Part shown: positions 2,146-26,374 of the stretch, piece by piece | How the letters are laid out: the number at the start of each line of letters is the position of its first letter | Position numbering within the stretch: the first letter of the stretch is position 1 | Program-made: the position numbers and the translations under genes | Notes under the pieces: generated by a model | The model's input: only the letters and a program-made list of their open reading frames with translations | The model's database searches: none | What the model was told of the DNA's origin: nothing | Assembly (NCBI GenBank): GCA_021787935.1 | Contig: JAJYLC010000009.1 | Location: 1-41,594, forward strand | Source: Chloroflexota bacterium | GTDB taxonomy: Bacteria > Chloroflexota > Dehalococcoidia > SZUA-161 | DNA length: 41,594 nt | Direction of reading: 5' to 3'

Positions 2146-2173
2146 AATTTATAAGCATTAACGGAGGGTTAAT

Positions 2174-2932: not shown

Positions 2933-3000
2933 CCGACAAGCGCTCATTCAAGATAGCTATACGACGGACTGGATGATAGATTAACGATGGAGGCCATGAA

Positions 3001-3807: not shown

Positions 3808-3816
3808 TTCGGCGAT

Positions 3817-5349: not shown

Positions 5350-5390
5350 CGTTACCCCCAATTAGGTATTTAACCCCCGGGAAGACTCAT

Positions 5391-6587
5391 TTAATCTTCT
5401 GCCACGACCTCAGCAGGAATCCTATGTCTCAGTATTTCTATTGCCCCATCCACCATCTCATCGATAATCTGTTTGGCGGTTTTTCTTTCCTTGAGCATCC
5501 CTGCTATCTGGCCTCCGAAACCGCTTATGTAGTCGCGCATTTTCGCTTTCCTCAAGCCCAAAGCAACCTCACTTATGAGCAGACTTTGGAGAGGCATAGG
5601 AAGTGTCTTTCCCTCTCCTTTCTCCCATGTTTCGATAAGCCTGTTATTGATCAAGCGTGCTGTCTTGCCCGTATATATTCTGGTCACACGCGTATCTTCC
5701 TCCGTAGCCGCTATTATCTTATCCTTCCAGTTATCGATCTCCCATTGCTCCAAACCATACGGGTCGACTCCTACATTGAAAATCCAATCTATGGGAGAAT
5801 CGATGCAGGCCTCGTGGGCAAGAAGAAAAACGGTGCCCGCCCAGACTCCACAGGCGCCCAGTGCCAGGGAAGCAACAAGGCCTCTGCCATCGCCAACTCC
5901 CCCAGCGGCTACCACAGGCAGAGGTCTAACAGCATCTACTACTTGAGGGATTAGTGGAAGCGTGCCTATGCGACCCGTATGCCCTCCGGATTCATATCCC
6001 TGAGCCACAATGACATCCACCCCAGCCTCAGCCAGGCGGCAAGCGTTTCTAACATTGCCCACCAGTCCGATGACTTTCACGCCCTTAGCATGTGCTTGAG
6101 GTACTGCATATTCTGGATTGCCCAGCCCCGTTGCCAGGATCGGGACTCTTTCCTCCACTACCACATCAATCAATTTCTTCGCACCTGAAAGCAATTCAGA
6201 CTCCACCTCAATGGGTGGAATTTCCACATCGGGTATGCCAATCTCGCTCTTAAGGTTATCGACGAAGGCTAATTGCTCCGCAGGCAGGAAGGCCCTCAGA
6301 TCAGAAAGAGAGAACTTACCTGATATTGGCGGAAGGTCTAGATGCGGAATCAAGAGGTCAACGCCGAAAGGTTTGTTGGTGAGCTTCCTGGTCTTCTTAA
6401 TCCAATCATGCAATTGGATAGGATTTAGTCCGGCTGCACCTAAGACGCCTAATCCGCCCGCATTTGACACCGCTGCGACAAGGGTAGGCCCGCAGACGCC
6501 CCCCATACCGGCCAGGATGATGGGATACTTAATACCCAATAAATCACACAATCGAGTACGAAGAGTCTTTGACTTCTTATGGCTCAT
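5391..6587 (-). CDS. Nitronate monooxygenase / FabK-like FMN enzyme
   Basis: A 398-residue TIM-barrel flavoprotein of the 2-nitropropane dioxygenase/FabK superfamily. The N-terminus has KYPIILAGMGGVCGPTLVAA and GGLGVLGAAGL, and the central part has the phosphate-binding VAQGYESGGHTG and VVAAGGVGDGRGL segments that hold FMN. Family members either oxidise nitronates or reduce enoyl-ACP/CoA. In an apparently anaerobic genome an enoyl-thioester reductase or dehydrogenase role is more likely than a monooxygenase, but this is inference. It has a C-terminal extension of about 100 residues after the barrel. The ATG at 6587 has only a weak GGGAAC upstream. It is the third gene of the leftward operon, between the NIPSNAP-like pair and the CoA-transferase. 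Confidence 0.85.
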   Translation of the reverse strand: MSHKKSKTLRTRLCDLLGIKYPIILAGMGGVCGPTLVAAVSNAGGLGVLGAAGLNPIQLHDWIKKTRKLTNKPFGVDLLIPHLDLPPISGKFSLSDLRAFLPAEQLAFVDNLKSEIGIPDVEIPPIEVESELLSGAKKLIDVVVEERVPILATGLGNPEYAVPQAHAKGVKVIGLVGNVRNACRLAEAGVDVIVAQGYESGGHTGRIGTLPLIPQVVDAVRPLPVVAAGGVGDGRGLVASLALGACGVWAGTVFLLAHEACIDSPIDWIFNVGVDPYGLEQWEIDNWKDKIIAATEEDTRVTRIYTGKTARLINNRLIETWEKGEGKTLPMPLQSLLISEVALGLRKAKMRDYISGFGGQIAGMLKERKTAKQIIDEMVDGAIEILRHRIPAEVVAED

Positions 6588-6647
6588 TAGCTGTTCCCAA
6601 TAGCCTGCGAGACCCGACTCAGTCTTGCCATTCTCTGGTGGCTATCC

Positions 6648-7367
6648 TTACCCCGCTTTCATCAGGTCTAAGGCTTGAATATATTCATCCATGGCACGCA
6701 GCGGGGAGAAGTCAACCACTCCGAACAACAGCCTGCACTGCCGCTGAGTGCGCCAGGCTCCTACCTTAGCCTCCCATTGCTTAAGAGCCGGATCCTTCTG
6801 TGCAGCCTGACGGATAGCGCCGTATTCCGTGTTCGAGTTGCCTGTCGTCCAGATTTCAATAACCTCATTGCTATCCGCCTGCCCTGCCACTGTCCTGTAA
6901 CAGCCTACCAGGTTCCTGCCCCATCTTTTGGCCATAGGTATCATTTCCTTCTCTACGGAGCTGATATATTCGCTCACTTTGTCCGGTAGCAACCTGGACT
7001 GAGAGAAGAGATATATGGTAGCCCTGTACTTATCATCGCGCTTGATCTTTGCCAGGTTGGGCGAGAACGGGGTGGGCTCAAGAATTCGTCTCACCCAGTC
7101 AGTCCGATACTGTACAGATTCCAGCTTCCAATTCTCCATCCAAAAATCCTTCTCATGGAGCTCCTGTATCCGGTCCAAAGTAGCCCAATCGTCGAGCTCC
7201 CAGAGAGCAAAATGTTCGTTATAACGAATTCCAATCACAAATAGCCCGACCAATCGCATACCTTTCTTCTCCACATCAGGCATGTAGTCGGTCTTTATTA
7301 TCCCGTGTAACTCCCCTCCAAAACCTCCGTGGGGGATAATGGTCAGATTTTCCGCAAGATAAAGCAT
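6648..7367 (-). CDS. NIPSNAP-like tandem ferredoxin-fold protein (second of a pair)
   Basis: A 239-residue protein with two NIPSNAP/dimeric alpha-beta-barrel-like halves. The second half (about residues 115-185) has the LLPDKVSEYISSVEKEMIPM, RNLVGCYRTVAG and SNEVIEIW series expected of the fold. The first half repeats it in degenerate form (YMPDVEKKGMRLVGLFV; YNEHFALWEL). Such domains often form small barrels that bind or convert hydrophobic ligands, but no reaction is proven for this group. It is related to the gene just upstream; both share a FSPxxAxIK linker between the halves. The start is ATG at 7367, because GAGGAGG lies five bases before it; an in-frame codon 24 residues upstream has no ribosome-binding site. 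It belongs to the leftward operon. Confidence 0.7.
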   Translation of the reverse strand: MLYLAENLTIIPHGGFGGELHGIIKTDYMPDVEKKGMRLVGLFVIGIRYNEHFALWELDDWATLDRIQELHEKDFWMENWKLESVQYRTDWVRRILEPTPFSPNLAKIKRDDKYRATIYLFSQSRLLPDKVSEYISSVEKEMIPMAKRWGRNLVGCYRTVAGQADSNEVIEIWTTGNSNTEYGAIRQAAQKDPALKQWEAKVGAWRTQRQCRLLFGVVDFSPLRAMDEYIQALDLMKAG

Positions 7368-7420
7368 TGAATCCTCCTCATTGATCCCGGAGCTTAAAAC
7401 TGTACCCCGTATCTTAGCAT

Positions 7421-8095
7421 CTATTTCAGAAGCGACCACTCCGCCGGAACCCAGAATGTGTAGCTACACTCCGTACGCAACGACACTGCCTTTTCCGTCC
7501 ACCTTTGAAAGGAACGGTCTCTGGCCCGCTCTTCGAGTATCTTGCCCCAGTGAGCCCAGTTCTTCAACGACCAGAAGCTCCGGATCTCATTAGGTTCGCC
7601 GCAGCCGGAGAACCAGCGGTAGCAGCCTGCCAGCTTCATGCCGCGTTTCTCTTCCATGGGCACCAATTCCTTTTCCATCGCCTCTAGATACTCATCTACT
7701 TTACCCGGCAATACCCTGGTAAGCTCCCAGTAATAAATTGAGTTCCCTACGAAATCACCCTTCTTCTGGCGCTCTTTTATTGTTGCCACAGTCGGGGAGA
7801 AAGAAACGCCCTCGACCCACTGGCTATGCCAGTTTTCGCGGTACTTCTCCGCCAGCCTCTGCCATGCCATTCCCTCCCTGTCAGTCAGAGCGTATGCGCC
7901 ACAGGTATCGATACCCTCTACACCTGCGAGGTATTCCCATACAAATATAGCTTCATTATAATGGCCGAAACTTTTGAAAGCGCCCGCTACGGACACATAC
8001 TTGGTCCACCCGGGCACACAGTACCTGCCGACTGCCCACACATATTCATCAACCATCCCCGGCTTGACAATAATAGGCTCGTGTAGGTAAATCAT
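7421..8095 (-). CDS. NIPSNAP-like tandem ferredoxin-fold protein (first of a pair)
   Basis: A 224-residue protein whose C-terminal half is a good NIPSNAP match: YYWELTRVLPGKVDEYLEAM, PMEEKRGMKLAGCYRWF and PNEIRSFWSLKNWAHW. The N-terminal half repeats the pattern (VKPGMVDEYVWAVGRY; YNEAIFVWEYL), so one chain carries two domains. It is paralogous to the next gene, which suggests the two form a hetero-oligomer; this is inference. I chose ATG 8095 because AAGGAGG lies nine bases upstream; the ATG three codons earlier directly abuts that AAGGAGG. It is the first gene of the leftward operon, and the promoter should lie in the 8.1-8.5 kb gap that separates it from the divergent histidine kinase. Confidence 0.7.
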   Translation of the reverse strand: MIYLHEPIIVKPGMVDEYVWAVGRYCVPGWTKYVSVAGAFKSFGHYNEAIFVWEYLAGVEGIDTCGAYALTDREGMAWQRLAEKYRENWHSQWVEGVSFSPTVATIKERQKKGDFVGNSIYYWELTRVLPGKVDEYLEAMEKELVPMEEKRGMKLAGCYRWFSGCGEPNEIRSFWSLKNWAHWGKILEERARDRSFQRWTEKAVSLRTECSYTFWVPAEWSLLK

Positions 8096-8522
8096 GGCTC
8101 CCATCCTCCTTTGCTACGGGGTAATCCTCAATACATCAGCCTTCGTATCTCGTAATATTCAGGACAAACTCAGCGTCTTTTCAAAAATTTCACCTCCTTA
8201 CCTGTCGCCCTGGAATTGTGGTGAAAAACGAATGAGATAGTCGACTGATAAGAAAACTATCTCACGAAATGTACTTAGCCGAAATAGCGTTCTCCCATCA
8301 AGTAAGAGGACGGAAAATAGAGGGGCAAATTTACAATCTTTTATGGGAAGTACGTATTGCCCTGACTTATAACACTAACTGCTGGTGATGTCAAGGAAAG
8401 TTTGGCAAAACTGTTTACATACTGTAGGTGGAGATTCACAATTCTTCCAGGATAACCATCAGTCCGTCTTTAAGCATTCTCGCAAACCGTAATCTTTACA
8501 CCCCCTATATAACTGTGATACC
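8096..8522. other. Divergent intergenic region between the NIPSNAP operon and the histidine kinase
   Basis: About 430 bases without a credible gene. It must hold the promoters of the leftward operon and probably of the rightward kinase, but I found no convincing -35/-10 pair. It contains the inverted repeat listed separately. At 8191-8200, read on the minus strand, is TAAGGAGGTG, a near-perfect anti-16S complement followed only by a very short frame, so it may be a relic or a tiny leader peptide. Confidence 0.6.
8233..8264. promoter_or_regulatory. 9-bp inverted repeat, possible operator
   Basis: TGAGATAGT (8233-8241) and ACTATCTCA (8256-8264) are exact inverted copies separated by 14 bases. 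No T-tract follows on either strand, so a terminator is unlikely. The site sits in the gap between two divergent transcription units, which fits a repressor or activator binding site. No regulator gene other than the kinase lies nearby. Confidence 0.4.
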
Positions 8523-10835
8523 ATGCGATTCACCATGAATGCCCTGGGAACCTCCACAAAAAATCGCACCGAGTATGCCTCGCTTACGCCAGGCATGCTG
8601 GGAACAGTACCTTTGCTCCTAGTATTACTGGCACTATTGCTGTTCCATGTCTTCCATATCGGTGGCATTTATAACCCATCCTGGCTATTTCAGCTACTTA
8701 ACATAGGCCTGTTATCAGTGTCGTGTTTGCTTGCAGCTTACCTGGCGGTGTGGGCCTTTTCTGCGACGGGGCAGCCGCAACTTGCCTGGCTGGGCGGCGG
8801 GCTTTTCGTCTTCGGGCTGGCAAATCTCATGGCTGTGCTGGTAACTGATCCACAGAACTTGAATGTGACCGTGCACAACAGTAGCTCCTTACTTGCCTCG
8901 ATATACTTTTTGATAGGGGCTCTCATAGCAGCAGGCTGGAGCCTCCCACCCGGAATGTCCAGGATAAGACTTTCGACCCCGGCTATCATATACATTACAG
9001 GTATGCTATTCGTGGTCTTGATGTTCGTATTCAGCTTGCAAAATGTTACACCTGTCTTCTTCGTGCCCGGTGAAGGTGGCACCTTGCTCAGACAAATAGT
9101 GCTGCGTAGCGCCACCGCGCTGTTCGCTATCTCCGGGCTTGTGTTGCTTGTCGTATATTTTCGGTCGCGGATGGTGTTTCTCTACTGGTTTTGCCTGGGC
9201 CTGTTGCTGGTTGCCGTGGGTCTGCTAATCGTAAGTTTTCAGAAGACCATAGGTGATCCCACAAACTGGCTCGGCAGAGGCGCCCAGTACATGGGTGGCA
9301 TTTACTTCCTTATCGGCATCGCTACCACTCTACGAGAGACCGTATCCACAAGAATAGGTTTCACTAAACTGGCCAGCACTATATTTCCTGCTACAGCCCA
9401 GAGCTATCGACTTCTCGTCGACACGGCGACCGAGGCTATAATTGCCTTGAACCCCGAAGGCAGAATAGCGCTTTGGAACTCCTCCGCCGAGAAAATGTTC
9501 GGATATAGTACCAGAGAAGCTGTGGGCTCTTTTCTCGTCGATCTGGTGGTACTTGAAAGACATGCGCACGACGTTAGAGAATGGATGAGAGCAGCGAAAA
9601 CAGAGCTGCCGCTAACTGCTAAGGAGTTGACACTGAAACGCAAGGATGGGCAGGAGATTCCTGTGGCAGTATCGCTCTCCGCTGGAATATCATACGGTGC
9701 GCAGGTGAAAGTTTTTGTGGCGAGAGATATCGCTGACCGTAAGCAGGCCGAAGAAGCCCTCAGGCGAAGCGAAGAAAAATACCGTGGCTTGTTTGATAAT
9801 ATGACGGAAGCCTTTGCGCTTTGGAAAATTGTGTTAGATGACAAGGGTAAACCTAACAATTACGCTATCTTAGAGATCAATGATGCCTGTGAGAAGCTTG
9901 TTGGTGTCCCTAAAGAGAAATTGATTGGTAAAACCATTTTTGAGATATATCCCAACGCAGATCCACAGTGGATGGAGAGATTTGGTGTAGTTGCACTTAC
10001 CGGAGAAAGCGACCACTTGGAATATCACAGCCAGTTTCTGGATAAGTGGCTCGAACTACATGCTTTCTCTCTGCATGAAGGGTATTTCGCTACCGTCTTG
10101 AAAGACATTACCGGGCGCAAGAAAGTAGAACAGCTAAAGGACGAGTTCATCGGTATGGTGTCCCATGAGCTTCGCACCCCGCTGACAGTAGTAACTGGCG
10201 CCCTCTATACCTCCCTGAGCGAGGAGCTCCCGGCCGAGGAAAAACAACAGCTTATGTACGATGCTCTATGGGGCACAGAGATGCTGAACCAGATACTTGA
10301 CAACCTGCTCGAACTGTCTCGAGCCCAGGCAAATCGTCTTACGCTTACCATCCAGCCGGTAAATATTTTAGAATGCGCTGCTGGCGTTGTGAACAGACTT
10401 CAGTATAAATCGGCCGGACACTGGTTTGAGATAAACGTACCACCAGAGCTGACTGTGCAGGCTGACCCGGTTCGGATAGAACTCATCCTTCGCAATCTGG
10501 TGGATAATGCCATCAAGTATTCGCCATCGGGAGGACAGGTTACAATCTTCGCTAAACGAGACGGCGAGAACATGGTTGCCGGGGTCAGTGACCAGGGTCC
10601 GGGGATACCGCTCGAAGCGCAAGAGAGGCTTTTTGTGCGTTTCCATCGATTGGAGCAATCGGTTCACTCCGGAGTTGAGGGTATTGGGCTAGGGCTTAGC
10701 GTTTGCCGTACCCTGGTAGAAGCTCACGGGGGTCGTATCTGGGTAGAATCACAGCCCGGCCAGGGCTCTACATTCTACTTCAGCGTTCCCATAGACGCCA
10801 AGCCTGATAGGGCTGGTAATTTGTTGTCAGGCTAA
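8523..10835 (+). CDS. Orphan membrane-bound PAS sensor histidine kinase
   Basis: A 770-residue kinase. Residues about 25-275 form a run of seven or eight hydrophobic helices with no large extracytoplasmic loop, so the sensor is membrane-embedded. Two PAS domains follow (YRLLVDTATEAIIALNPEG near residue 297; KYRGLFDNMTEAF near 421). Next come the HisKA box SHELRTP with the phospho-accepting His548, and then a HATPase domain with N box NLVDNAIKYSPSGG, G1 VSDQGPGIP and G2 GIGLGLSVCRTL. No response regulator lies in the window, so its partner is elsewhere. The position between two catabolic operons suggests it senses a substrate or a redox or membrane signal for one of them; that is inference. 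The ATG at 8523 has no clear Shine-Dalgarno, and the ATG at 8535 is the alternative. Confidence 0.9.
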   Translation: MRFTMNALGTSTKNRTEYASLTPGMLGTVPLLLVLLALLLFHVFHIGGIYNPSWLFQLLNIGLLSVSCLLAAYLAVWAFSATGQPQLAWLGGGLFVFGLANLMAVLVTDPQNLNVTVHNSSSLLASIYFLIGALIAAGWSLPPGMSRIRLSTPAIIYITGMLFVVLMFVFSLQNVTPVFFVPGEGGTLLRQIVLRSATALFAISGLVLLVVYFRSRMVFLYWFCLGLLLVAVGLLIVSFQKTIGDPTNWLGRGAQYMGGIYFLIGIATTLRETVSTRIGFTKLASTIFPATAQSYRLLVDTATEAIIALNPEGRIALWNSSAEKMFGYSTREAVGSFLVDLVVLERHAHDVREWMRAAKTELPLTAKELTLKRKDGQEIPVAVSLSAGISYGAQVKVFVARDIADRKQAEEALRRSEEKYRGLFDNMTEAFALWKIVLDDKGKPNNYAILEINDACEKLVGVPKEKLIGKTIFEIYPNADPQWMERFGVVALTGESDHLEYHSQFLDKWLELHAFSLHEGYFATVLKDITGRKKVEQLKDEFIGMVSHELRTPLTVVTGALYTSLSEELPAEEKQQLMYDALWGTEMLNQILDNLLELSRAQANRLTLTIQPVNILECAAGVVNRLQYKSAGHWFEINVPPELTVQADPVRIELILRNLVDNAIKYSPSGGQVTIFAKRDGENMVAGVSDQGPGIPLEAQERLFVRFHRLEQSVHSGVEGIGLGLSVCRTLVEAHGGRIWVESQPGQGSTFYFSVPIDAKPDRAGNLLSG

Positions 10836-10843
10836 TGGTGACC

Positions 10844-10868
10844 ACTGCGCTTGGAAGGCGCAGTTTTC
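10844..10868 (+). terminator. Intrinsic terminator after the histidine kinase
   Basis: ACTGCGC (10844-10850) pairs with GCGCAGT (10858-10864) around a 7-base loop, followed by TTTCC. It starts nine bases after the kinase stop codon and insulates the glycyl-radical operon downstream. Confidence 0.7.
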
Positions 10869-10905
10869 CTTAATTAGTGGCCACATATATCCGGTTGGTC
10901 TACGC

Positions 10906-10934
10906 TTGACAAATTTCCGGATTAATGCTAGAAA
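10906..10934 (+). promoter_or_regulatory. Sigma70-type promoter of the glycyl-radical enzyme operon
   Basis: TTGACA (10906-10911), a 17-base spacer and TAGAAA (10929-10934). It lies between the kinase terminator and the first glycyl-radical enzyme and leaves a leader of about 115 bases, in which I see no riboswitch. Confidence 0.55.
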
Positions 10935-11055
10935 CAAACCTAGTAGAGCAATTCCACATACAATTGCTTAATAGCCGCTACAAAATGCAGGTACAGCTTC
11001 GGTAATATAACCTCAGTCTTTAATAGTTTCTGACCATGGGGGAGGGAGGCTAAAG

Positions 11056-13506
11056 ATGGCCACGGTTTCAGAGAAGAGGTTGACCCAAAAACTGGCAGAC
11101 CAGTTCCGTTACAGAACAATAATGGGACAGCGCGACTACCGGGTCGAGGAGGAGGAAAGGCTGGGCAAGATAAGTCACATCCGGCGAACGCTGAAGCTTG
11201 ATATCGAGCGCGCCCGCTATGTAACGCAAGCCTACAAGGAAAACGAGGGAGAGCCCATTGTTATTAGAAGGGCCAAAGCGATGGCCAATCATCTGGATAA
11301 CATGACCATCTATATAGGCGAGCACGACCGGATTGCGGGCAACACCGCTATAACCCCCGACCATACGATAAGCTATCCCGAGCTGTACTGCCGGTGGGTA
11401 GACAAGGCTATCGATATGGGCTACAGAGAAATGCTTCCCGACGAACACAGGGCAGAGATGCATGAGATTAACAAGTACTGGATGAACAAGTCTATACATG
11501 GAACTGAGCGTTTTCTGGTGCAAGAGGAAGACAAGCCCTATTGGTCTTACATGAATCAAGGAGCGTTCATCTGGGTGCACGGCGCGCACTCCGGCCAGAT
11601 GCCGAATTACCAGAAGATATTCAGGGTTGGTTTGAACGGCATACTCAAGGAGGCTCAGGACAAACTAAATGAAGTAAAGGCCAATAGAGAATTGATCCGC
11701 GATAATCCTAGAGATTTCCTGAAGAAGAAGGCTTTCCTGGAAGCTGTCATTATAAGCACCGAAGCAGCCATCAGGTGGTCGAAAAGGTATTCTGAATTGG
11801 CTCAGGCAATGGCTGCTGTGGAAGAAAGCGAGCAGAGGAAAAAGGAACTGGAGCAGATCGCTGAGGCCTGTAAGTGGGTCCCGGGCAACCCGCCTAGGAC
11901 ATTTTTCGAGACCCTGCAGTGCTGGTTCCTCATTATGCTGCTGGTCAGAGTACTCGATATCCAGACAGTTGGTATCGGCGACAGGGTTGATTATATCTGG
12001 TATCCATCCTACAAGAAGGACAAAGAGCGGGGACAAATAACCCCGGAGGAAGCTCAGGAGTTAATCGAGCATATCTGGCTGAAGCTTACCGAACTGACGG
12101 ATTTCAATGCGCCCATAATGGCAAGCGGCGGTCATACCACCCCTAGATACATAACAATCGGTGGTCAGGATCATCTGGGACGGGACGCTACCAACGAGCT
12201 GACCTACATAATCATGGACAGCGTCAAGGCTTTGAAGCTGGTCGAGCCCATGATGGTAGTCAGACTCCACCGCAACACACCGGACGAGTTCCTTTACCGG
12301 TTCACAGATATCCTGAGACAGGATGCCGGTCACTACGGCATCTTCAACGATGAGTTCATGGTACCGTACCTGATGAGCAAGGGTTTTTCAGTGGAGGATG
12401 CCAGAAACTGGGCCGTCGAGGACTGCATGAGACATACGGTGGTGGGCAAGCCTATGGGGCACAGAGCCATCGCCGGTCCGGGCTTCATGCTTCCCAAGTG
12501 CCTGGAATATGCCCTGTATCAGGGAAAAGACTACAAATTTTTCGACGGTAAGCAGATAGGGGCTCCTACTCCTGATCCGCTGACGTTCACTTCCATTGAC
12601 GATATGGTCAATGCTTATCTTGAGCAGGTGAGATTCTTCACTGAGAAGATAGTGATTTTCAGCAATATAACCGATGCTATCGAAGAGCAGTGGCTGCCAC
12701 AGCCTTTTAACTCGGCCCTCCTTGACGGCTGTATTGAGAATGCCATGGACGTCAGAGAGCTTCATTACTGGCACAAGACCAATATCCAGCCCGTGGGACA
12801 TACCACGGTGGTCAATGCGCTGGTAGCGATGAAGAAGCTGGTCTTCGAAGAAAAGAAAGCCACCATGGCGCAACTTTTGCAGGCTCTCAGGGATGACTGG
12901 GAAGGCCATGAGGAGCTGCGCAGCATGTTCCTGAACGCCCCAAAATTCGGCAATGATGACGATTACGTTGACCTTTTCGCCAGGGATATCCACATTAAAA
13001 CCTGTCAGGTGATGCAGGGTTTCAAAACGATATACGGCCACAAGGTTACCTGCGATGGCAGCGGAGGCGCTAGCTATTTCCACTTCGCGGGGCTTACCGG
13101 AGCAACCCCGGACGGAAGGAAAGACCGCGGCCTGTTTAACGACGGCACTATCTCTCCGGAGATCGGCACCGACAAAAAAGGGCCGACCGCTGTGCTCAAA
13201 TCTGTCTCCAAGATAGACCCTATGGTAACGTTCAACCACCTGTTCAATCAGAGGGTCATGCCTGAGTTCCTGGAAGGCGATAACAGGGCGAAGTTCGTGG
13301 CATACCTGAGGACCTTCGTTGACCTGGGGATTCACCACATCCAGTTCAATATCATCGACGACAAAATTCTGCGAGATGCCCAGGCTCATCCGGACAACCA
13401 CCAGGACCTGATTGTCAGGGTCGCCGGTTTCAGCGCTTACTTTGTGGACATGAACAGCGAAGTGCAGGAACAGATTATCACCAGGACGAAACAAAGGATT
13501 GCCTGA
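11056..13506 (+). CDS. Glycyl-radical enzyme (pyruvate formate-lyase superfamily), first tandem copy
   Basis: An 816-residue PFL-like glycyl-radical enzyme. The C-terminal radical loop is RVAGFSA with the radical-bearing Gly791, 26 residues from the end as expected. The Cys-loop reads VEDCMRH with the catalytic Cys457. Eliminases and decarboxylases of this superfamily (choline lyase, glycerol dehydratase, 4-hydroxyphenylacetate decarboxylase) have GCxE at this point; here Asp precedes the Cys and Arg stands where the Glu should be. It therefore does not fit those classes, and the reaction is unknown. X-succinate synthases also lack the Cys-x-Glu, so radical addition is one option. No activating radical-SAM enzyme and no Bss-type small subunits are nearby. 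The ATG is preceded by GGGGAGGGAGG. A close paralogue follows after 41 bases. Confidence 0.93.
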   Translation: MATVSEKRLTQKLADQFRYRTIMGQRDYRVEEEERLGKISHIRRTLKLDIERARYVTQAYKENEGEPIVIRRAKAMANHLDNMTIYIGEHDRIAGNTAITPDHTISYPELYCRWVDKAIDMGYREMLPDEHRAEMHEINKYWMNKSIHGTERFLVQEEDKPYWSYMNQGAFIWVHGAHSGQMPNYQKIFRVGLNGILKEAQDKLNEVKANRELIRDNPRDFLKKKAFLEAVIISTEAAIRWSKRYSELAQAMAAVEESEQRKKELEQIAEACKWVPGNPPRTFFETLQCWFLIMLLVRVLDIQTVGIGDRVDYIWYPSYKKDKERGQITPEEAQELIEHIWLKLTELTDFNAPIMASGGHTTPRYITIGGQDHLGRDATNELTYIIMDSVKALKLVEPMMVVRLHRNTPDEFLYRFTDILRQDAGHYGIFNDEFMVPYLMSKGFSVEDARNWAVEDCMRHTVVGKPMGHRAIAGPGFMLPKCLEYALYQGKDYKFFDGKQIGAPTPDPLTFTSIDDMVNAYLEQVRFFTEKIVIFSNITDAIEEQWLPQPFNSALLDGCIENAMDVRELHYWHKTNIQPVGHTTVVNALVAMKKLVFEEKKATMAQLLQALRDDWEGHEELRSMFLNAPKFGNDDDYVDLFARDIHIKTCQVMQGFKTIYGHKVTCDGSGGASYFHFAGLTGATPDGRKDRGLFNDGTISPEIGTDKKGPTAVLKSVSKIDPMVTFNHLFNQRVMPEFLEGDNRAKFVAYLRTFVDLGIHHIQFNIIDDKILRDAQAHPDNHQDLIVRVAGFSAYFVDMNSEVQEQIITRTKQRIA

Positions 13507-13547
13507 GTAAATCACGCTGCGGCAAAGGCCTCAAGGGGAGGTTGGAA

Positions 13548-16004
13548 ATGACTGTGGTGGATGAGAAAAGGTTAACCGAGAAGTTGGCAGACCAGGCGCG
13601 CTACAGGAGCGGGATGGGCGGGCAGCAGCGTGCCGGCCGCAGGCTCGACGAGCAGGAAATACGAAACCAGGTGAGTGACCTGCGTCCCGGCCTTAAGATT
13701 GATATCCAGCGCGCCCGCCTTGTCACACAGGCCTACAAGGAAAATGATGGCGAACCAATAGTAATTAGAAGAGCAAAAGCATTAGCCAATTTCCTTGACA
13801 ATATGTCTTTGTATCTAGGTGAGCATGACCGCATAGTCGGTAATTCGTCGAGGACTCCGGACCACACTATCAGCTACCCTGAGCTGTACAGCCGCTGGCT
13901 CGATAAGGCCATCGACATGGGCTACAAAAGCATGTTGACGGACGAAGAAAGGGCCGAGATGCACGAGATCAACAAATACTGGCTGAACAAGTCTACGCAA
14001 GGTCTCGAGCGTTTCATTCTCGCCGATGAAGATAAACCCTACTGGTCGTATTTCAATCAAGGGGTATTTATCTGGGTGCATGGTTACCACGCCGGCCAGA
14101 TGCCCAATTACGAGAAACTTTTCAAAATTGGCCTGAAGGGATTGCTGAAACAAGCCCAGGACAAGCTGGCAGAAATAAAAAGCGATAGAAGTCTTATCCG
14201 CGACAATCCCCGGGAATTCCTCAAGAAGAAAGCGTTCCTGGAAAGCGTCATAATATCACTAGAAGCAGGTATCAGGTGGAGCAAGAGATATGCCGAGCTC
14301 GCCCGAGCCATGGCTCGCGAAGCGAATTCGGAGAGACGAAAGGAGCTCGAACAAATCGCCGAGGCGTGTGAGTGGGTGCCCGAGAACCCGCCGCGGACAT
14401 TTTTTGAAGCTCTGCAGTTCTGGTATTTCATTTTCCTCATCAACAGGGTTATCGACATGCAAACTGCCGGTATCGGCGACAGATTTGATTACCTCTTCTA
14501 TCCTTTCTTCAAGAAAGATAAGGATGAGGGCAGGATAACCCGGGAAGACGCGCAGGAGCTGCTGGAACACGTCTGGATCAAACTTACCGAGCATCCCGAC
14601 CTGAATCCACCGATTATGGCCAGCGCTTCCAAGGCTACCCTGCGCTATCTGACTATCGGCGGACAGGACAGCCTGGGGAAAGACGTAACCAACGAGTTGA
14701 CCTACATACTCATGGACAGCGTCAAGTCCCTGAAGTTAACTGAACCGATGATATGCGTGAGACTTCACCGCAATACCCCGGACGAATTCCTTTACCGGTT
14801 CACGGACGTTCTGAGGCAGGATGCCGGTCACTACGGCATCTTCAACGATGAGTACATGGTGCCGTATCTGATGAGTAAAGGCATACCGCCCCAAGATGCG
14901 CGGAACTGGGCAGTTGAGGACTGCCTGAGACACACCGTAGTCGGCAAGCCCATGAGTCACCGTGCGATCTCGGGCATGGGATTCGCCTTGCCCAAGTGCA
15001 TGGAGTACGCCCTGAATCAAGGAAGAGACTACAAATTTTTTGAGGGGAAACAAATAGGCTACCCGACCCCCGATCCGCTTACCTTTACCTCAATCGAAGA
15101 CGCCATCCGGGCATACCTGAAGCAGGTAAAGTTCTTCTCCGAAAAAGTAGTAATGTTGGCGAACATAACAGATGCCCTCGAAGAGCAGTGGCTGCCCCAG
15201 CCTTTTAACTCGGCTATGCTAGACGGCTGCATTCAAAATGCCACCGATCTCCGGGAATTGCACTACTGGCATAAGACTAATATGCAGCCCGTCGGCCAGA
15301 CAACGGTAGTGAACTCGCTGGTAGCTATGAAGAAGCTGGTCTTTGAAGATAAAATAGCCACCATGGCGGAGCTTCTGCAGGCTCTCAGGGACAACTGGGA
15401 AGGCCATGAAGAGCTACGGCGGAAATTCCTCGATGCTCCTAAATTCGGCAACGACGATGACTATGTCGACCTTTTCGCCAGGAATGTCCATATCAGAACG
15501 TGCCAGACAATGCATGCGTTTAAGACGATATACGGGCATAACGTAACCTGTGACGGGAGTGGCAGTGTAAGCTATTTCAACTTCAGCGGCTTCACAGGCG
15601 CTACACCGGACGGCAGACAGGACCGTGACCTGTTCAACGATGGCACCATCTCTCCATTGCCCGGCACCGATAAGAAAGGGCCGACCGCTGTGCTCAAATC
15701 GGTTGCCAAGGTGGAGCCTTTGCTGACCTTCAATCACCTGTTTAACCAGAGGTGGACGCCTGAGTCCCTGGAAGGCGATAACAGATCCAAGTTCGTGGGA
15801 TACCTCAGGACATTCGTCGACCTGGGCATCCACCACATTCAGGGGAACGTGATTCACGACAAGGTGCTCTATGACGCTCAGAAGCACCCTGAAGATCATC
15901 AGGACCTGATAGTCAGGATAGCCGGGTTCAGTGCCTATTTCATCGACTTGCACAAAGAGGTGCAGGACCAGCTGATCTCCAGGACGAAGCAGAAGCTCTC
16001 CTAG
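13548..16004 (+). CDS. Glycyl-radical enzyme (pyruvate formate-lyase superfamily), second tandem copy
   Basis: An 818-residue paralogue of the preceding enzyme, very similar over its whole length, so the pair arose by tandem duplication. The radical loop is RIAGFSA (Gly793) and the Cys-loop is VEDCLRH (Cys459), with the same unusual Arg at Cys+2. The two copies differ at clustered positions that could shape the substrate pocket: MASASKATLRY replaces MASGGHTTPRY, and SVSYFNFSGF replaces GASYFHFAGL. This suggests related but not identical substrates, or a heterodimer. The start is ATG 13548 because GGGGAGG lies six bases upstream and the N-terminus then aligns with copy one; a TTG two codons earlier is less likely. 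It is followed by a repeat-containing gap of about 160 bases before the CoA-transferases. Confidence 0.93.
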   Translation: MTVVDEKRLTEKLADQARYRSGMGGQQRAGRRLDEQEIRNQVSDLRPGLKIDIQRARLVTQAYKENDGEPIVIRRAKALANFLDNMSLYLGEHDRIVGNSSRTPDHTISYPELYSRWLDKAIDMGYKSMLTDEERAEMHEINKYWLNKSTQGLERFILADEDKPYWSYFNQGVFIWVHGYHAGQMPNYEKLFKIGLKGLLKQAQDKLAEIKSDRSLIRDNPREFLKKKAFLESVIISLEAGIRWSKRYAELARAMAREANSERRKELEQIAEACEWVPENPPRTFFEALQFWYFIFLINRVIDMQTAGIGDRFDYLFYPFFKKDKDEGRITREDAQELLEHVWIKLTEHPDLNPPIMASASKATLRYLTIGGQDSLGKDVTNELTYILMDSVKSLKLTEPMICVRLHRNTPDEFLYRFTDVLRQDAGHYGIFNDEYMVPYLMSKGIPPQDARNWAVEDCLRHTVVGKPMSHRAISGMGFALPKCMEYALNQGRDYKFFEGKQIGYPTPDPLTFTSIEDAIRAYLKQVKFFSEKVVMLANITDALEEQWLPQPFNSAMLDGCIQNATDLRELHYWHKTNMQPVGQTTVVNSLVAMKKLVFEDKIATMAELLQALRDNWEGHEELRRKFLDAPKFGNDDDYVDLFARNVHIRTCQTMHAFKTIYGHNVTCDGSGSVSYFNFSGFTGATPDGRQDRDLFNDGTISPLPGTDKKGPTAVLKSVAKVEPLLTFNHLFNQRWTPESLEGDNRSKFVGYLRTFVDLGIHHIQGNVIHDKVLYDAQKHPEDHQDLIVRIAGFSAYFIDLHKEVQDQLISRTKQKLS

Positions 16005-16073: not shown

Positions 16074-16162
16074 CAAAAAGTCTGTTTTCGCAGAAAGATG
16101 TCAGAGCTCGACAGGCAAAGCAAAGCTTGAGACGAAAGGGGATGAAGGAGAAAGGTAAAAAT

Positions 16163-17374
16163 ATGGTATTTTTGCCTCCGTACAGGGTACTGGATTTGAC
16201 CGATGAGAAAGGCGTTTATTGCGGCAAGCTTCTCGGCGATTTGGGTGCTGAAGTAATCAAAGTCGAACCTCCCGGAGGAGACAGAACCAGATATCGCGGG
16301 CCCTTCTACCACAACGAGCCTCATCCCGAGAAGAGCCTGTATTTCCTCTACTACAACACCAGCAAAGGCTCAATTACTCTCAATCTGGAACATGCAGACG
16401 GACGCGCTATCTTCAAGAAACTGGTGAAGTCTGCTGATGCACTCCTAGAGAGCTACCCCGTCGGGCACCTCGCCAGTATCGGACTTGATTACAAATCGCT
16501 TCGAAAAGTCAATCCCGGCCTCGTAATGGCGGCTATAACCCCGTTTGGTCAGACAGGGCCACACAAGGACTACAAAGCCTCAGACCTCATAGTGATGGGC
16601 ATGAGCGGATACATGCAGCTCACCGGCGACCCCTATGGAGTGCCCGTCAGATTCGGAGATGAGCAGTCTCATTTTGCCCCTTCGCAGTACGCAGCCGTAG
16701 CCGTAACGGCTGCTCTTTATCACAGAGATGCGAACTCCGGAAAAGGCCAGTACATAGACATCTCCATGCAGGAGAGCCTGAATACCTATTGCTGCACCAT
16801 TGTTCAAGAAGCCGGCTGGACAGTGACAGGTCAGAATATCATCAGGCAGGGCGCCACCAGTCCCTGGAATTTCCCCAGCGGTCTTTACTCCTGCAAGGAC
16901 GGATGGATCGGGATGTACGTGGTGACGGCTGAACACTGGGATGCTTTGGCGCAGTGGATATACGAGGTCACAGGTAACGAAGAAATCCTTGAGGAGAAGT
17001 ATAGAGGCGGTCTGCTGGTGCGCAACCCCTATATAGACGTGTTAGAGGCTATATTCCTGGATTTCACCGGCTATCTCACAGCGCAGGAGCTGTTCTATGA
17101 AGGACAGAGACGCGGCATCGCCACATTGCCGGTCAATAGCGTTGCCGACCTTATCGCCGATAAGCAGTTGGCTGCACGTGACTTCTGGGTGGAACTAGAC
17201 CATCCCGTCGTGGGGCGGTTGAAGTACCCCCGGGGAAGCATGTACGGAGAAGATATAGCGCCGCCGCGAAAAGCTGCGCCTCTGCTGGGCCAAGACAACC
17301 GGAGAATCTATTGTGACGAGTTGGGATATACCGCCGATGAGCTGGATGTCCTGCGCACGGCAGGCATCATCTGA
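16163..17374 (+). CDS. Class III (CaiB/BaiF) CoA-transferase, first of a pair
   Basis: A 403-residue class III CoA-transferase, the family of formyl-CoA transferase (Frc), CaiB and BbsE/BbsF. These move CoA between carboxylates through an aspartyl-CoA anhydride or thioester. The N-terminal RVLDLTDEKGVYCGKLLGDLGAEVIKVEPP and GDRTRYRGP are typical. Asp166 in RFGDEQS aligns with the catalytic Asp169 of oxalate Frc. I chose ATG 16163, seven bases after AAAGG; a TTG further upstream would add 12 Lys/Arg-rich residues. The next gene is a second member of the family only 12 bases away. Such pairs form heteromers in benzylsuccinate CoA-transferase BbsEF, so this pair may work as one enzyme that activates a radical-enzyme product. 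Confidence 0.9.
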   Translation: MVFLPPYRVLDLTDEKGVYCGKLLGDLGAEVIKVEPPGGDRTRYRGPFYHNEPHPEKSLYFLYYNTSKGSITLNLEHADGRAIFKKLVKSADALLESYPVGHLASIGLDYKSLRKVNPGLVMAAITPFGQTGPHKDYKASDLIVMGMSGYMQLTGDPYGVPVRFGDEQSHFAPSQYAAVAVTAALYHRDANSGKGQYIDISMQESLNTYCCTIVQEAGWTVTGQNIIRQGATSPWNFPSGLYSCKDGWIGMYVVTAEHWDALAQWIYEVTGNEEILEEKYRGGLLVRNPYIDVLEAIFLDFTGYLTAQELFYEGQRRGIATLPVNSVADLIADKQLAARDFWVELDHPVVGRLKYPRGSMYGEDIAPPRKAAPLLGQDNRRIYCDELGYTADELDVLRTAGII

Positions 17375-17386
17375 CCGAGGTGTGAT

Positions 17387-18625
17387 GTGCCGAAAAAAGC
17401 CGCTAAGAAAGGAATCCTCGACGGCGTCAGGATTGTCGAAATAGCCTTCTACGTTGCTGTACCCACTGCCGGTCGTGTTCTGGCCGCCCTAGGCGCCGAA
17501 GTGATTACCGTGCAGAGCATTAACGCATTGGAACAAACATGGCTCGCTCCCCCCTACGCGCCGGGTCTACTTATGCGGAACGTCCTGCTGGGCAAGCGTA
17601 GCCTGAGCCTCAACCTCGAGGACCCCAGGGGCCAGGAGATTTTAAGAAAACTGCTCAACAAGAGCGACGTATTCATGACCAACATGCGCCGCGACAGCCT
17701 CGCTAAACGTGGTATCGACTTCGACCAATTGAGAAAGGTGAAACAGGACCTCATCGTATTGTGGCAGACAGCCTTCGGCTCATCTGGGCCCCACAGCGAT
17801 CACAAAGCATACGGTATGCTTGTCCAGTACAGCTCTGGGGTAACATTGATGAGCGGCTCGCCCGAAAGGCCTGCCGTAACCGACCCTCCTTATTGCGACC
17901 TTCATACCGGGATGTTTTGCGCGCTGGCGATACTGGGCGCTCTACACAAACGCCGCCGCACAGGTGAAGGCAGCCTCATCGAGTGCGTTCTGAACGACGC
18001 CGGAGTGCTGACTGTCGGTCCCGCTCTCCTGAACTATCAGGCAAATGGCACATTGCCCATCCGTATGGAAAACAAGGACCCCTATGCTGCCCCCCACGGT
18101 GCCTACCCGTGTAAAGGCTACGACCGCTGGTGTACCATCGCCGTTTTCACCGATAGCGAATGGGCGAGTTTCTGCCAAGTGCTGGGCAACCCGGCATGGA
18201 CAAAGCGAACTGAATTCCAGACCCTGGCTGATAGGCTCAGAAATGTCGACGAGCTGGACCGCCTGGTCGCAGAGTGGACCATCAGCTCTGAAGCCGCCGA
18301 AGTCATGGAGAGAATGCAGCAGGCAGGAGTTCCGGCGGGAATCGTTGCCCAGGGCCAGGACTTGTGCAATAGCGAACATCTCAAAAGCCGGGGATACTAT
18401 AAAGACGTAAAATACATCACGCCCGAGTTTGGAAAGCCCGGACCTGAGTGGGCAGAGGCCGGGCCCACGATCTGCATTTCCGACCCTATCCATTTCTCCG
18501 AGACCACCTGCCGCTTTGCCGGCATGCCTAAAATCGGTCAGGATACTGAGTACGTGTGCGGTAAACTGCTCGGCATGCCTCATGGTGAGATTGAGGCACT
18601 GACCAAACAAGGAGTGCTGGTCTAG
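17387..18625 (+). CDS. Class III (CaiB/BaiF) CoA-transferase, second of a pair
   Basis: A 412-residue class III CoA-transferase. It has the N-terminal GVRIVEIAFYVAVPTAGRVLAALGAEVI and the RSLSLNLEDPRGQEIL segment of the family, and Asp171 in YCDLHTG matches the catalytic Asp of Frc. It is clearly diverged from the preceding gene, so the pair is not a recent duplication. The start is GTG 17387 with GAGG six bases upstream. The N-terminus PKKAAKKG is basic and short. It is translated 12 bases after the first transferase and 23 bases before the acyl-CoA dehydrogenase, so it is firmly within the operon. Whether it forms a heteromer with the first or acts on a different acid is not visible from the sequence. 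Confidence 0.9.
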   Translation: MPKKAAKKGILDGVRIVEIAFYVAVPTAGRVLAALGAEVITVQSINALEQTWLAPPYAPGLLMRNVLLGKRSLSLNLEDPRGQEILRKLLNKSDVFMTNMRRDSLAKRGIDFDQLRKVKQDLIVLWQTAFGSSGPHSDHKAYGMLVQYSSGVTLMSGSPERPAVTDPPYCDLHTGMFCALAILGALHKRRRTGEGSLIECVLNDAGVLTVGPALLNYQANGTLPIRMENKDPYAAPHGAYPCKGYDRWCTIAVFTDSEWASFCQVLGNPAWTKRTEFQTLADRLRNVDELDRLVAEWTISSEAAEVMERMQQAGVPAGIVAQGQDLCNSEHLKSRGYYKDVKYITPEFGKPGPEWAEAGPTICISDPIHFSETTCRFAGMPKIGQDTEYVCGKLLGMPHGEIEALTKQGVLV

Positions 18626-18648
18626 TTAAAGACGAATTGGAGCAGAAG

Positions 18649-19821
18649 ATGGATTTCAGTTTTACGCCGGAGCAGGAGCGACTTCGCTATCAAGTTCGAG
18701 AGTTCCTGCAGAAAGAGGTCACCGAGCAAAGCAAGCTGGATTTTAAGTTCGACCAGCCGTACAGCCCGGATACCTGGAAGCTGCTGCACAAATTGGGGGA
18801 GAGGGGCTGGCTCTGCCCGCTTTATCCTAAAGAGTGGGGCGGCATGGCCGCATCGCCTCTGGACAACTACGTCATCCAGGATGAGCTGGCCTATGCCTTC
18901 GCTCCCGCACCGTGTGCGCTGATCGGGGCTATGGTTGTGGGTCCTACGCTCCTGATATACGGCAATGAAGAGCAGAAGAAGAAATACCTGCCCAGGATAG
19001 CCCACGGCGAAATCGAGTTCTCTATGGGCTACACCGAGCCTGGCTCAGGCTCAGACCTCGCTTCACTGGCGCTTAAGGCAGAGGACAAGGGCGACTATTA
19101 TCTGCTCAACGGCCAGAAGATGTTCAGCACCAAGGCTGACTTCGCAGACTATGGCTGGATTGCAGTTAGGACTGATTCTGAGAATCCTAAGAAGCACAAA
19201 GGTATATCGCTCCTCATTATAGACTTCAAAAATACTCCCGGGGTCACTGTACGCCCTATCCGTGACATGGCCGGTTACCATTCGAACGAGGTTTTCTACG
19301 ACGATGTCCGCGTCCCTAAGGAGAACCTGGTAGGCGACCTGAACCAGGGGTTCTACATCATAGGGGCCGCGCTTCTTTTCGAACGAGCTGTCACCATCAG
19401 TGGGTTCCATAGGCCATTGGAGCTTCTCATAGATTATGTAAAGTCTACCAAACGCAGCGGTAAACCTCTGTCTGCTAACCCGCTCATCAGGCGTAAACTC
19501 GCCGAGATGGAGATGAAGTTCGCCGTGACCAGAGTGCTGTCTTACCGTCTCTCCTGGATGCAGGTGCATAAGATGTTCACCCTGACCGAGACAGCCATAA
19601 CCAAGATACTGAGCACCGAGACTGTATACGACCTCGCTCAGACAGGCATGCAGATACTGGGGCACCACGGGGAGCTGTCCAGCGGCTCGAAATGGGCCGA
19701 GCTTCACGGTTGGTTTGCGCACATGTACCAGGAGTCCCCGCACTACAAGATCGCCGGCGGCACCTCAGAGATCCAGAGACAGATTATCGCCACCCGAACC
19801 CTGGGCCTCCCGCGGGGATAG
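18649..19821 (+). CDS. Acyl-CoA dehydrogenase family protein
   Basis: A 390-residue FAD-dependent acyl-CoA dehydrogenase. It carries the first signature YTEPGSGSDLASL (about residue 129) and the C-terminal IAGGTSEIQRQIIATRTLGLPRG. In short- and medium-chain enzymes the catalytic base is Glu in YEGT; here that position is Gly370 (AGGT). This is common in FadE-type subfamilies, where the base lies elsewhere or in a partner subunit. The enzyme should introduce a 2,3-double bond into the CoA thioester made by the preceding transferases. The start is ATG 18649 (MDFSFTPEQE is the usual N-terminus) with GGAG six bases upstream; a TTG at 18637 is less likely. No enoyl-CoA hydratase follows in the window. 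Confidence 0.92.
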   Translation: MDFSFTPEQERLRYQVREFLQKEVTEQSKLDFKFDQPYSPDTWKLLHKLGERGWLCPLYPKEWGGMAASPLDNYVIQDELAYAFAPAPCALIGAMVVGPTLLIYGNEEQKKKYLPRIAHGEIEFSMGYTEPGSGSDLASLALKAEDKGDYYLLNGQKMFSTKADFADYGWIAVRTDSENPKKHKGISLLIIDFKNTPGVTVRPIRDMAGYHSNEVFYDDVRVPKENLVGDLNQGFYIIGAALLFERAVTISGFHRPLELLIDYVKSTKRSGKPLSANPLIRRKLAEMEMKFAVTRVLSYRLSWMQVHKMFTLTETAITKILSTETVYDLAQTGMQILGHHGELSSGSKWAELHGWFAHMYQESPHYKIAGGTSEIQRQIIATRTLGLPRG

Positions 19822-19983: not shown

Positions 19984-21225
19984 ATGCCTGCAATGGAAAC
20001 CAAAGCGCAGACATACAAAGCGTACAGCTATAGATGGGTCATCCTGGCTGTATTCATGTACATAGCCGCCCTGACCCAGTTGTACTGGCTGAACTTCTCG
20101 GCTATAGACACCTATGTCGAAGACAATTTACATATCTCTGCATTCAGCGTCAGCCTGTTAACGCTGGTCTTCCCTCTGGTGTACGTTCTGCTTTCCCTGC
20201 CTTCAGGCATGATTATCGATAAGAAGGGGTTCAAGTACAGCATAGGCATAGGTGCCATTTTCACCGGCGTCTTCAGCATCATCCGCATAATCAATCCCTA
20301 CTCATATCCCTTTCTTCTGATGTCACAGATAGGGATTTCCGTAGGCCAGCCCTTCATCTTGAATGGGATCACCAAGCTTGTGGTAACCTGGTTTCCGCAG
20401 AAAGAAGAGGCCACCGCAGTAGGGCTGGGCTCTCTAGCGTTGTTCATCGGCATGGTCATCAGCCTGGGAGCAACTCCTGTCCTGGTAGACTCCCTCGGGC
20501 TTAGAGCTATGCTGTTGGTCTACGGCATCATAGGAATCGCGGGCATGCTGCTGTTCTATTTGCTGGTCAGGGATAAGCCTCCCACACCTGCCAGAGAGCT
20601 AAAAGAAGAAGAGAAAATCTCCATCCGGGAAGGCATGAAAAGCATCCTGAGGATCAGAGACTTTGTAATCCTGGGATTCGTAGCTTTAATCGGCATCGGG
20701 GTCTTCAACGGGCTGGCCACCTGGTTGGAGAAAATATTGAACGAACTGCATGGCATCTCCATGGTCGATGCCGGCAGCATATCTTCGGTGTTAGTCTTCA
20801 GCGGCATGCTCGGCTGCATTATCATTCCCATAATCTCAGATAGAATCAAAAAAAGAAAGCCCTTTCTTGTCCTGGCGTCTTTAGTAGGGGCTGTATGTGT
20901 CGTTGTCCTTATGTTTGGCAGCGGCTATGCAGTCAACCTGGGCAATGGCATAGTGCTGGGCTTCTTCCTGCTGTCGGCCCTGCCCATCATGCTCACCATG
21001 TCCATCGAGATCACAGGTGAAAAATACGCAGGAATCTCCGTAGCCTATCTACAGCTTCTGGGCAACGGGGCAGCCGTAGCCATCGTACCCATAATGGAGG
21101 TTTTACACGGCGTAAGAGGCACGTATTATTTACCTCTTGTTTTCATAGCAGTATTACTTGCTATCGCCATAGTGATGGCCGTTCGAATCAGAGAAACAGG
21201 TAAAACCGCCCTGGCCCCAGGGTAA
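19984..21225 (+). CDS. MFS transporter, FLVCR/MFSD7-like
   Basis: A 413-residue major facilitator with twelve hydrophobic segments. The YSYRWVILAVFMYIAALTQ start, the LNFSAIDTYVEDNLHIS loop and the LPSGMIIDKKGFKYSIG loop 2-3 motif resemble the FLVCR-like branch, which moves small organic ligands. The central cytoplasmic loop between helices 6 and 7 is charged (ARELKEEEKISIREGMKSI). It probably takes up, or exports, the substrate of the adjacent operon. The start is ATG 19984, though ATG 19993 is equally possible because a weak AGG lies near both. The 160-base gap from the dehydrogenase leaves room for a separate promoter. Confidence 0.88.
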   Translation: MPAMETKAQTYKAYSYRWVILAVFMYIAALTQLYWLNFSAIDTYVEDNLHISAFSVSLLTLVFPLVYVLLSLPSGMIIDKKGFKYSIGIGAIFTGVFSIIRIINPYSYPFLLMSQIGISVGQPFILNGITKLVVTWFPQKEEATAVGLGSLALFIGMVISLGATPVLVDSLGLRAMLLVYGIIGIAGMLLFYLLVRDKPPTPARELKEEEKISIREGMKSILRIRDFVILGFVALIGIGVFNGLATWLEKILNELHGISMVDAGSISSVLVFSGMLGCIIIPIISDRIKKRKPFLVLASLVGAVCVVVLMFGSGYAVNLGNGIVLGFFLLSALPIMLTMSIEITGEKYAGISVAYLQLLGNGAAVAIVPIMEVLHGVRGTYYLPLVFIAVLLAIAIVMAVRIRETGKTALAPG

Positions 21226-26359: not shown

Positions 26360-26374
26360 GGAAAGGAGAAGGAA

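Follow-up and report, generated by a model that had tools for sequence, protein, structure and literature searches.

Tandem glycyl-radical enzymes in a Dehalococcoidia genome: members of a sister clade of the succinate synthases, with putative fumarate-adding chemistry

Among the main known routes into anaerobic hydrocarbon degradation is the addition of fumarate. The closest described enzymes are the X-succinate synthases (XSS), represented by benzylsuccinate synthase (BSS; PDB 4pkc and 5bwe) and (1-methylalkyl)succinate synthase (MASS; PDB 9o8u), which belong to the glycyl-radical enzymes (GREs). A 2019 survey found GREs of Chloroflexi and other metagenome-assembled genomes (MAGs) to be distant from canonical XSS, and proposed the divergent Chloroflexi enzymes as alkane activators (PMC6472368). 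Here, two neighbouring genes for oxygen-sensitive radical enzymes, GRE1 and GRE2, are considered in a stretch of 41,594 nucleotides (the window), which is the whole of contig JAJYLC010000009.1 (C25) in the 2.68 Mb draft genome (G000) of a Chloroflexota bacterium of the class Dehalococcoidia. With moderate confidence, we read GRE1 and GRE2 as paralogous single-subunit members of an uncharacterised GRE clade that is sister to XSS and probably adds fumarate. The features on which this reading draws are as follows.

11056..13506, + strand: GRE1, glycyl-radical enzyme of 816 amino acids (open reading frame; Pfam PFL-like 4.4e-160, Gly_radical 2.5e-26; tree)
12418..12435, + strand: GRE1 Cys loop E455-D-C457-M-R459-H (alignment)
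12463..12465, + strand: GRE1 Arg470 codon, in the column of BSS Arg508/MASS Arg492 (alignment; role of Arg508/Arg492 from passages of PMC12358834)
13051..13065, + strand: GRE1 C-D-G-S-G, with D667-G668 and S669 (alignment)
13417..13437, + strand: GRE1 glycyl-radical loop RVAG791FSA (alignment)
13548..16004, + strand: GRE2, tandem paralogue of GRE1 (open reading frame, which opens at TTG 13542; Pfam; alignment)
14916..14933, + strand: GRE2 Cys loop E459-D-C461-L-R-H (sequence)
14961..14963, + strand: GRE2 Arg474 codon, counterpart of GRE1 Arg470 (alignment)
15915..15935, + strand: GRE2 glycyl-radical loop RIAGFSA (sequence)

An earlier note on this DNA, made from its letters, described two intact GREs side by side with Cys loops EDC-M/L-RH, and this description holds: both reading frames exceed the Pfam cut-offs for PFL-like and Gly_radical, and both carry the Gly loop. 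The alignment with GRE1 makes ATG 13548 a more likely start for GRE2 than TTG 13542. As the two proteins are 74% identical, their common loop motif reflects homology and not chance. The catalytic Cys was also correctly picked; the catalytic Cys of glycerol dehydratase (GD), BSS and MASS aligns with GRE1 Cys457, and Cys457 and Gly791 occupy the columns of BSS Cys493 and Gly829. No second Cys adjoins Cys457 to form the tandem active-site pair of pyruvate formate-lyase (PFL).

Does the Cys loop define a family? Arg459 of GRE1 stands where all 12 rows of the C-x-E set have Glu (rows chosen for having Glu at Cys+2; other outgroup rows were tallied apart), so the C-x-E glutamate is missing, as had been claimed. 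The Asp before the Cys and the Arg two after it, which the note took for marks of a subfamily, do not stand as such. The Cys-1 residue among relatives is Gly, Asn, Gln, Glu or Asp, and Asp is confined to three sequences, namely GRE1, GRE2 and one orthologue in genome G002. Over 26 core rows (the 32-row main clade minus six rows), Cys+2 is Arg in 16, Ser in nine and Gly in one. D-C-x-R-H was thus rejected as a family-defining motif; the prevailing loop among relatives is G-C-M-R-W, and others have N-C-M-S-W. The Cys loop of BSS and MASS, C-M-S-P, likewise has no C-x-E glutamate. Since XSS are already without this residue, its absence alone does not imply a new reaction, and a missing C-x-E should first be weighed against the succinate synthases.

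Judged by the alignment, the telling residue shared with XSS is Arg470, not the Asp or Arg of the loop. BSS Arg508 and MASS Arg492 bind fumarate (PMC12358834), and GRE1 Arg470 falls in their column both in the MAFFT alignment and on counting from the post-loop helix. Arg is present there in 28 of the 32 main-clade rows and 3/3 XSS rows, against 0/12 C-x-E rows; beyond those sets it recurs in loci L128 and L030, with His, Asn, Pro or a gap in others. M458, Q732 and Y750 are also common to GRE1 and XSS and are rare or absent among the C-x-E rows. D667-G668 is invariant in the core rows (26/26).

The trees point the same way. In a 56-row tree, one branch (100/100) splits 15 C-x-E-type or similar rows from 41 rows that hold XSS and the GRE1/GRE2 family. 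A 54-row tree (the 56-row set minus four near-identical rows, plus HypD and PflB) was rooted on E. coli PflB; in it XSS (BSS, MASS and a MasD-like protein), the GRE1/GRE2 family, L058/L133 and L038 form a 37-row clade (100/100), with the family beside the three XSS rows and not nested within them. GD, HypD, CutC and two IslA-like rows fall outside; PDB 5ymr is taken to be IslA and 6lon to be HpfG-like. Approximately unbiased (AU) tests on 28 selected rows reject a grouping of XSS with PFL (p 0.0037) and of the GRE1/GRE2 family with GD (p 0.010), and the best 28-row tree unites the family with XSS (SH-aLRT 98). BSS, L038 and PFL sit on long branches, which calls for caution on placement. The trees contain no decarboxylase reference, and arylacetate decarboxylases were compared by profile score alone: GRE1 reaches 361.5 of 1100 bits with the indoleacetate equivalog and 317.1 of 1150 bits with that of 4-hydroxyphenylacetate decarboxylase (HPAD), both under the cut-off. 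It is also under the cut-off of the PFL model, NCBIfam TIGR01255 (80.3 of 994.2 bits). The distinct subfamily proposed in the earlier note is therefore upheld, by the 100/100 branch and by scores under all NCBIfam equivalog cut-offs, and a place in the choline-lyase clade is contradicted by the rooted tree, where CutC lies outside. The interpretation in the note stands in part: the pair belongs to a distinct subfamily, but this groups with XSS, relatives that were missed by comparing eliminases and decarboxylases only.

Could the pair nevertheless be a dehydratase or another C-x-E eliminase in which Arg has taken the place of the Glu as the loop drifted towards C-x-R? The highest single-sequence PDB score of GRE1 is to GD (447 bits, against 369 for BSS), and the top NCBIfam scores are dehydratase models, all under cut-off. 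PDB 2f3o, which we take to be A. fulgidus PflD and which is absent from the trees, scores 353 bits, lower than GD or BSS. The MasD-like protein L031, however, scores best to the same dehydratase model, so this score does not discriminate. GD residues H164, H281, E435 and D447, to which we ascribe active-site roles, align with GRE1 S179, T304, R459 and I472, and none of the four is kept. With these replacements, the position outside the group in the PflB-rooted tree and the AU test against it, the eliminase reading was rejected as quite improbable.

The two genes open a same-strand run that continues with four others, separated by gaps of 35, 122, 12, 11 and 162 bases (the first one measured to TTG 13542).

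16127..17374, + strand: CoAT_A, class III CoA-transferase subunit without the catalytic Asp (top PDB match 9fn0 chain A)
17387..18625, + strand: CoAT_B, class III CoA-transferase subunit with the catalytic Asp (top PDB match 9fn0 chain B)
18637..19821, + strand: acyl-CoA dehydrogenase (Pfam; top PDB matches 4x28 and 6wy9)
19984..21225, + strand: major facilitator superfamily (MFS) transporter, end of the gene run (Pfam)

The strand and the 162-base gap suggest that the transporter belongs to the operon. CoAT_A matches 9fn0_A at 2.2e-56 (9fn0_B at 4e-28), and CoAT_B matches 9fn0_B at 2.6e-52 (9fn0_A at 3e-8). A 27-row CoA-transferase tree places 8/8 A rows with chain A and 8/8 B rows with chain B (each 100/99), and five control rows and L135 elsewhere; in all eight pairs, A is without the catalytic Asp like chain A and B retains it like chain B. 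Such a pair lies near 7/33 GRE1/GRE2-family loci versus 0/20 loci of other GREs (Fisher p 0.037; the 33 include L055, whose GRE was lost in gene calling and which is not in the trees), and it directly adjoins the GRE in the window, L051, L056, L128 and L132.

Other loci carry longer gene sets. In L128 (genome G686), one strand reads CoAT_A, CoAT_B, GRE, activase, two acyl-CoA dehydrogenases, an old yellow enzyme (OYE) homologue, a short-chain dehydrogenase/reductase (SDR), an OB-fold protein and a thiolase-like protein; positions 954-14436 there have the appearance of a complete operon. The genome of the window encodes a third GRE paralogue, with loop E-G-C-M-R-W, split between two contig ends (C106 and C94); its contig also encodes an enoyl-CoA hydratase, OB-fold, thiolase-like and amidohydrolase proteins, two acyl-CoA dehydrogenases and a thiolase. 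A fourth paralogue, on C166, is more distant (32% identical) and carries the common G-C-V-E loop. The thiolase-like protein has its closest matches in 4u4e and the lipid-transfer protein 6ok1 and a weaker one in the benzoylsuccinyl-CoA thiolase 7pxp; together with the dehydrogenase matches this would lean towards an acyl-CoA bulkier than benzylsuccinyl-CoA. A methylmalonyl-CoA mutase and 17 HGD-D proteins above cut-off are also encoded in the genome of the window, compatible with fumarate regeneration and with aromatic or hydroxy-acid metabolism.

How is the glycyl radical installed? The earlier note saw no activase in the window, and indeed a Pfam scan of 30 window proteins shows no radical-SAM protein; in the genome as a whole a single protein, encoded on contig C1, exceeds the activase cut-off of TIGR02494. 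Two acyl-CoA dehydrogenases flank it, one of them 86% identical to the window copy, and two CoA-transferases, with 58% identity to CoAT_A and 50% to CoAT_B, lie upstream. As the single activase of the genome stands amid these paralogues, it probably acts in trans on GRE1 and GRE2, and C1 seems to hold another module of their pathway. Activases 43-50% identical to that of C1 occur in nine GRE loci of relatives; activase-type genes 40-54% identical occur also in 5/20 control loci. A related group with the loop N-C-M-V-P (L129, L130, L137 and L138) has an activase of its own adjoining each GRE.

Solved fumarate-adding enzymes have extra small subunits, and a sister clade without them would allow a test of what these subunits are for. 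A scan of small Cys-rich open reading frames at 11 GRE1/GRE2-family loci gave no convincing candidate; the majority of the matches sit within other genes or run antisense. Applied next to the MasD-like gene of G036 (L157), the scan picked up CxxC proteins, one of which, of 71 amino acids, has a Cys spacing like that of MASS delta as described in passages of PMC12358834. BssB and BssC were not found by a Pfam search whose controls were silent too. The G036 locus (L157/L031, contig C3), from another Dehalococcoidia genome, combines a MasD-like alkylsuccinate synthase, small CxxC proteins and two activase-type genes.

A number of observations weigh against fumarate addition, beside the PDB ranking of GD over BSS. 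No BSS- or MASS-like small subunit turned up for the family in these scans. The column of BSS Gln707/MASS Glu690 is Ser669 in GRE1 and Ser or Thr in 26/26 core rows; BSS Tyr197, Trp613 and Asn615 are not conserved in GRE1, and its Cys loop is two residues shorter than that of BSS. Column 470 is Ser in L129, L130, L137 and L138, His in L135 and L036, and Asn or Pro in L058 and L133, and the Arg of L030 belongs to a row that is not in the C-x-E set. An AlphaFold2 model of GRE1 from a five-sequence alignment has a pLDDT of 34, which leaves the side-chain direction of Arg470 and Arg459 unproven. Among the neighbours, the window acyl-CoA dehydrogenase is closer to 4x28/6wy9 and much weaker to 7p98, presumably a benzylsuccinyl-CoA dehydrogenase type. 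The count of 7/33 includes orthologues. The genome has 50 CoA_transf_3 matches, some of which are fragments of a shared gene, and tandem pairs or triples are frequent among them. With 30 of the 50 matches taken as loci, several additional A/B pairs located away from GREs belong to the same two lineages. Pairs so frequent are not specific to the GRE1/GRE2 pathway, and an A/B pair is a safer sign of acid activation than of succinate chemistry.

Some of these points would suit a different radical chemistry with an acid as substrate (decarboxylation, C-C cleavage or a mutase reaction, for instance), in which Arg470 and Arg459 would bind the carboxylates of the substrate and the CoA-transferase would activate the resulting acid. 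Both Arg residues are natural carboxylate binders, a transporter gene ends the run, the residues that hydrogen-bond fumarate in BSS are not conserved, column 470 is not Arg in all members and heteromeric CoA-transferases are frequent in the genome. The place in the tree by XSS with the common Arg column, CoA-transferase subunits closest to benzylsuccinate CoA-transferase and the OB/thiolase and dehydrogenase sets near relatives tell against such a reaction, which we regard as less likely than fumarate addition.

Under fumarate addition, the C1 activase would install the radical on Gly791 of GRE1 and Gly795 of GRE2, from where it would pass to Cys457/461. The thiyl would abstract H from the substrate, and the carbon radical would add to fumarate or to a similar unsaturated dicarboxylate. 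One carboxylate would be bound by Arg470/474, in the manner of BSS Arg508; the second may be clamped by Arg459, at Cys+2, where BSS and MASS use the Cys-loop backbone and Gln707/Glu690. The heteromeric CoA-transferase would then activate the substituted succinate, and the acyl-CoA dehydrogenase would oxidise it. From sequence, we infer addition of fumarate, or a close analogue, to a substrate that probably differs from those of the known enzymes in being more polar or bulkier. GRE1 Asp456 aligns with BSS Leu492, which touches the bound product (PMC4848970); the substrate of GRE1 and GRE2 is thus probably more polar than toluene or alkanes. More tentatively, the clade might constitute a new class of fumarate-adding GRE across Dehalococcoidia, without accessory subunits, that may bind fumarate by Arg470 and Arg459 and act on polar or bulky substrates and not on plain hydrocarbons. 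If so, the tandem expansion, with its two genes in the window and four consecutive ones in G504, would accord with the use of several substrates, and a sister clade in uncultured Chloroflexota would broaden the substrate range of fumarate-addition chemistry.

How widespread is the clade? GRE2 has matches at E 1e-160 or better in 29/393 genomes of the class. Among 400 genomes across the phylum, only that of the window and G386, of the same class, are clearly above the rest. A contig scan, which reaches close relatives only, gave three named loci, all from Dehalococcoidia MAGs. The tandem arrangement recurs in G504, where four GRE genes stand in a row (L119, 5935-15843) with loops EQCMRW and EGCMRW. 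The viral contig scan gave a sole, partial relative, L160 (IMGVR_UViG_3300022698_000034, 3001-3864), a C-terminal GRE part 38% identical to GRE1; this contig, filed as viral, is possibly misfiled. Literature searches listed no paper that describes the clade in its title or the opening of its abstract (supplements lay outside the search).

The restriction of Asp at Cys-1 to three sequences, and the existence of the third paralogue with G-C-M-R-W, raise the question of whether one or both copies are non-catalytic or are mutual partners, D-C-x-R-H being a derived copy and the C106/C94 paralogue performing the reaction. Both copies, however, are full length with Gly loop and Cys intact, and the G002 orthologue retains the same loop and CoA-transferase neighbours, which makes this even less probable than an eliminase.

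Elsewhere in the window (23496-27592), a FGGY kinase, a RuBisCO-like protein and a saccharopine-dehydrogenase-like protein are encoded side by side. The RuBisCO-like protein scores 401.8 bits, against the 409 cut-off of the 2,3-diketo-5-methylthiopentyl-1-phosphate (DK-MTP-1-P) enolase model, and the genes may represent a RuBisCO-like pathway without assignment.

With the C-x-E eliminases (glycerol dehydratase, CutC, HypD and IslA), then, GRE1 and GRE2 share the fold and the catalytic Cys and Gly, but the Glu and two His of GD are replaced in GRE1 and the pair lies outside that group in the rooted tree. CoAT_A and CoAT_B resemble benzylsuccinate CoA-transferase 9fn0 in matching different chains, A without and B with the catalytic Asp, but the sequence similarity is only distant and pairs of the same type occur away from GREs in the genome. 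The 2019 survey may have touched the same lineage: L046 bears the MAG name E44_bin56, and E44 is one of the sites of PMC6472368, the available passages of which describe no loop residues, CoA-transferase link or separate Dehalococcoidia clade. The family differs from XSS in having no detected small Fe-S/rubredoxin subunits and no linked activase for GRE1/GRE2, in C-M-R-H/W versus C-M-S-P, in Ser/Thr versus Gln707/Glu690, in a loop two residues shorter and in the D-G-S/T signature. With XSS it shares the fold family, the Gly and Cys loops, a C-M without Glu at Cys+2, the fumarate-binding Arg column, Q732 and Y750, a joint clade at 100/100 and adjoining genes for a CoA-transferase and a dehydrogenase.
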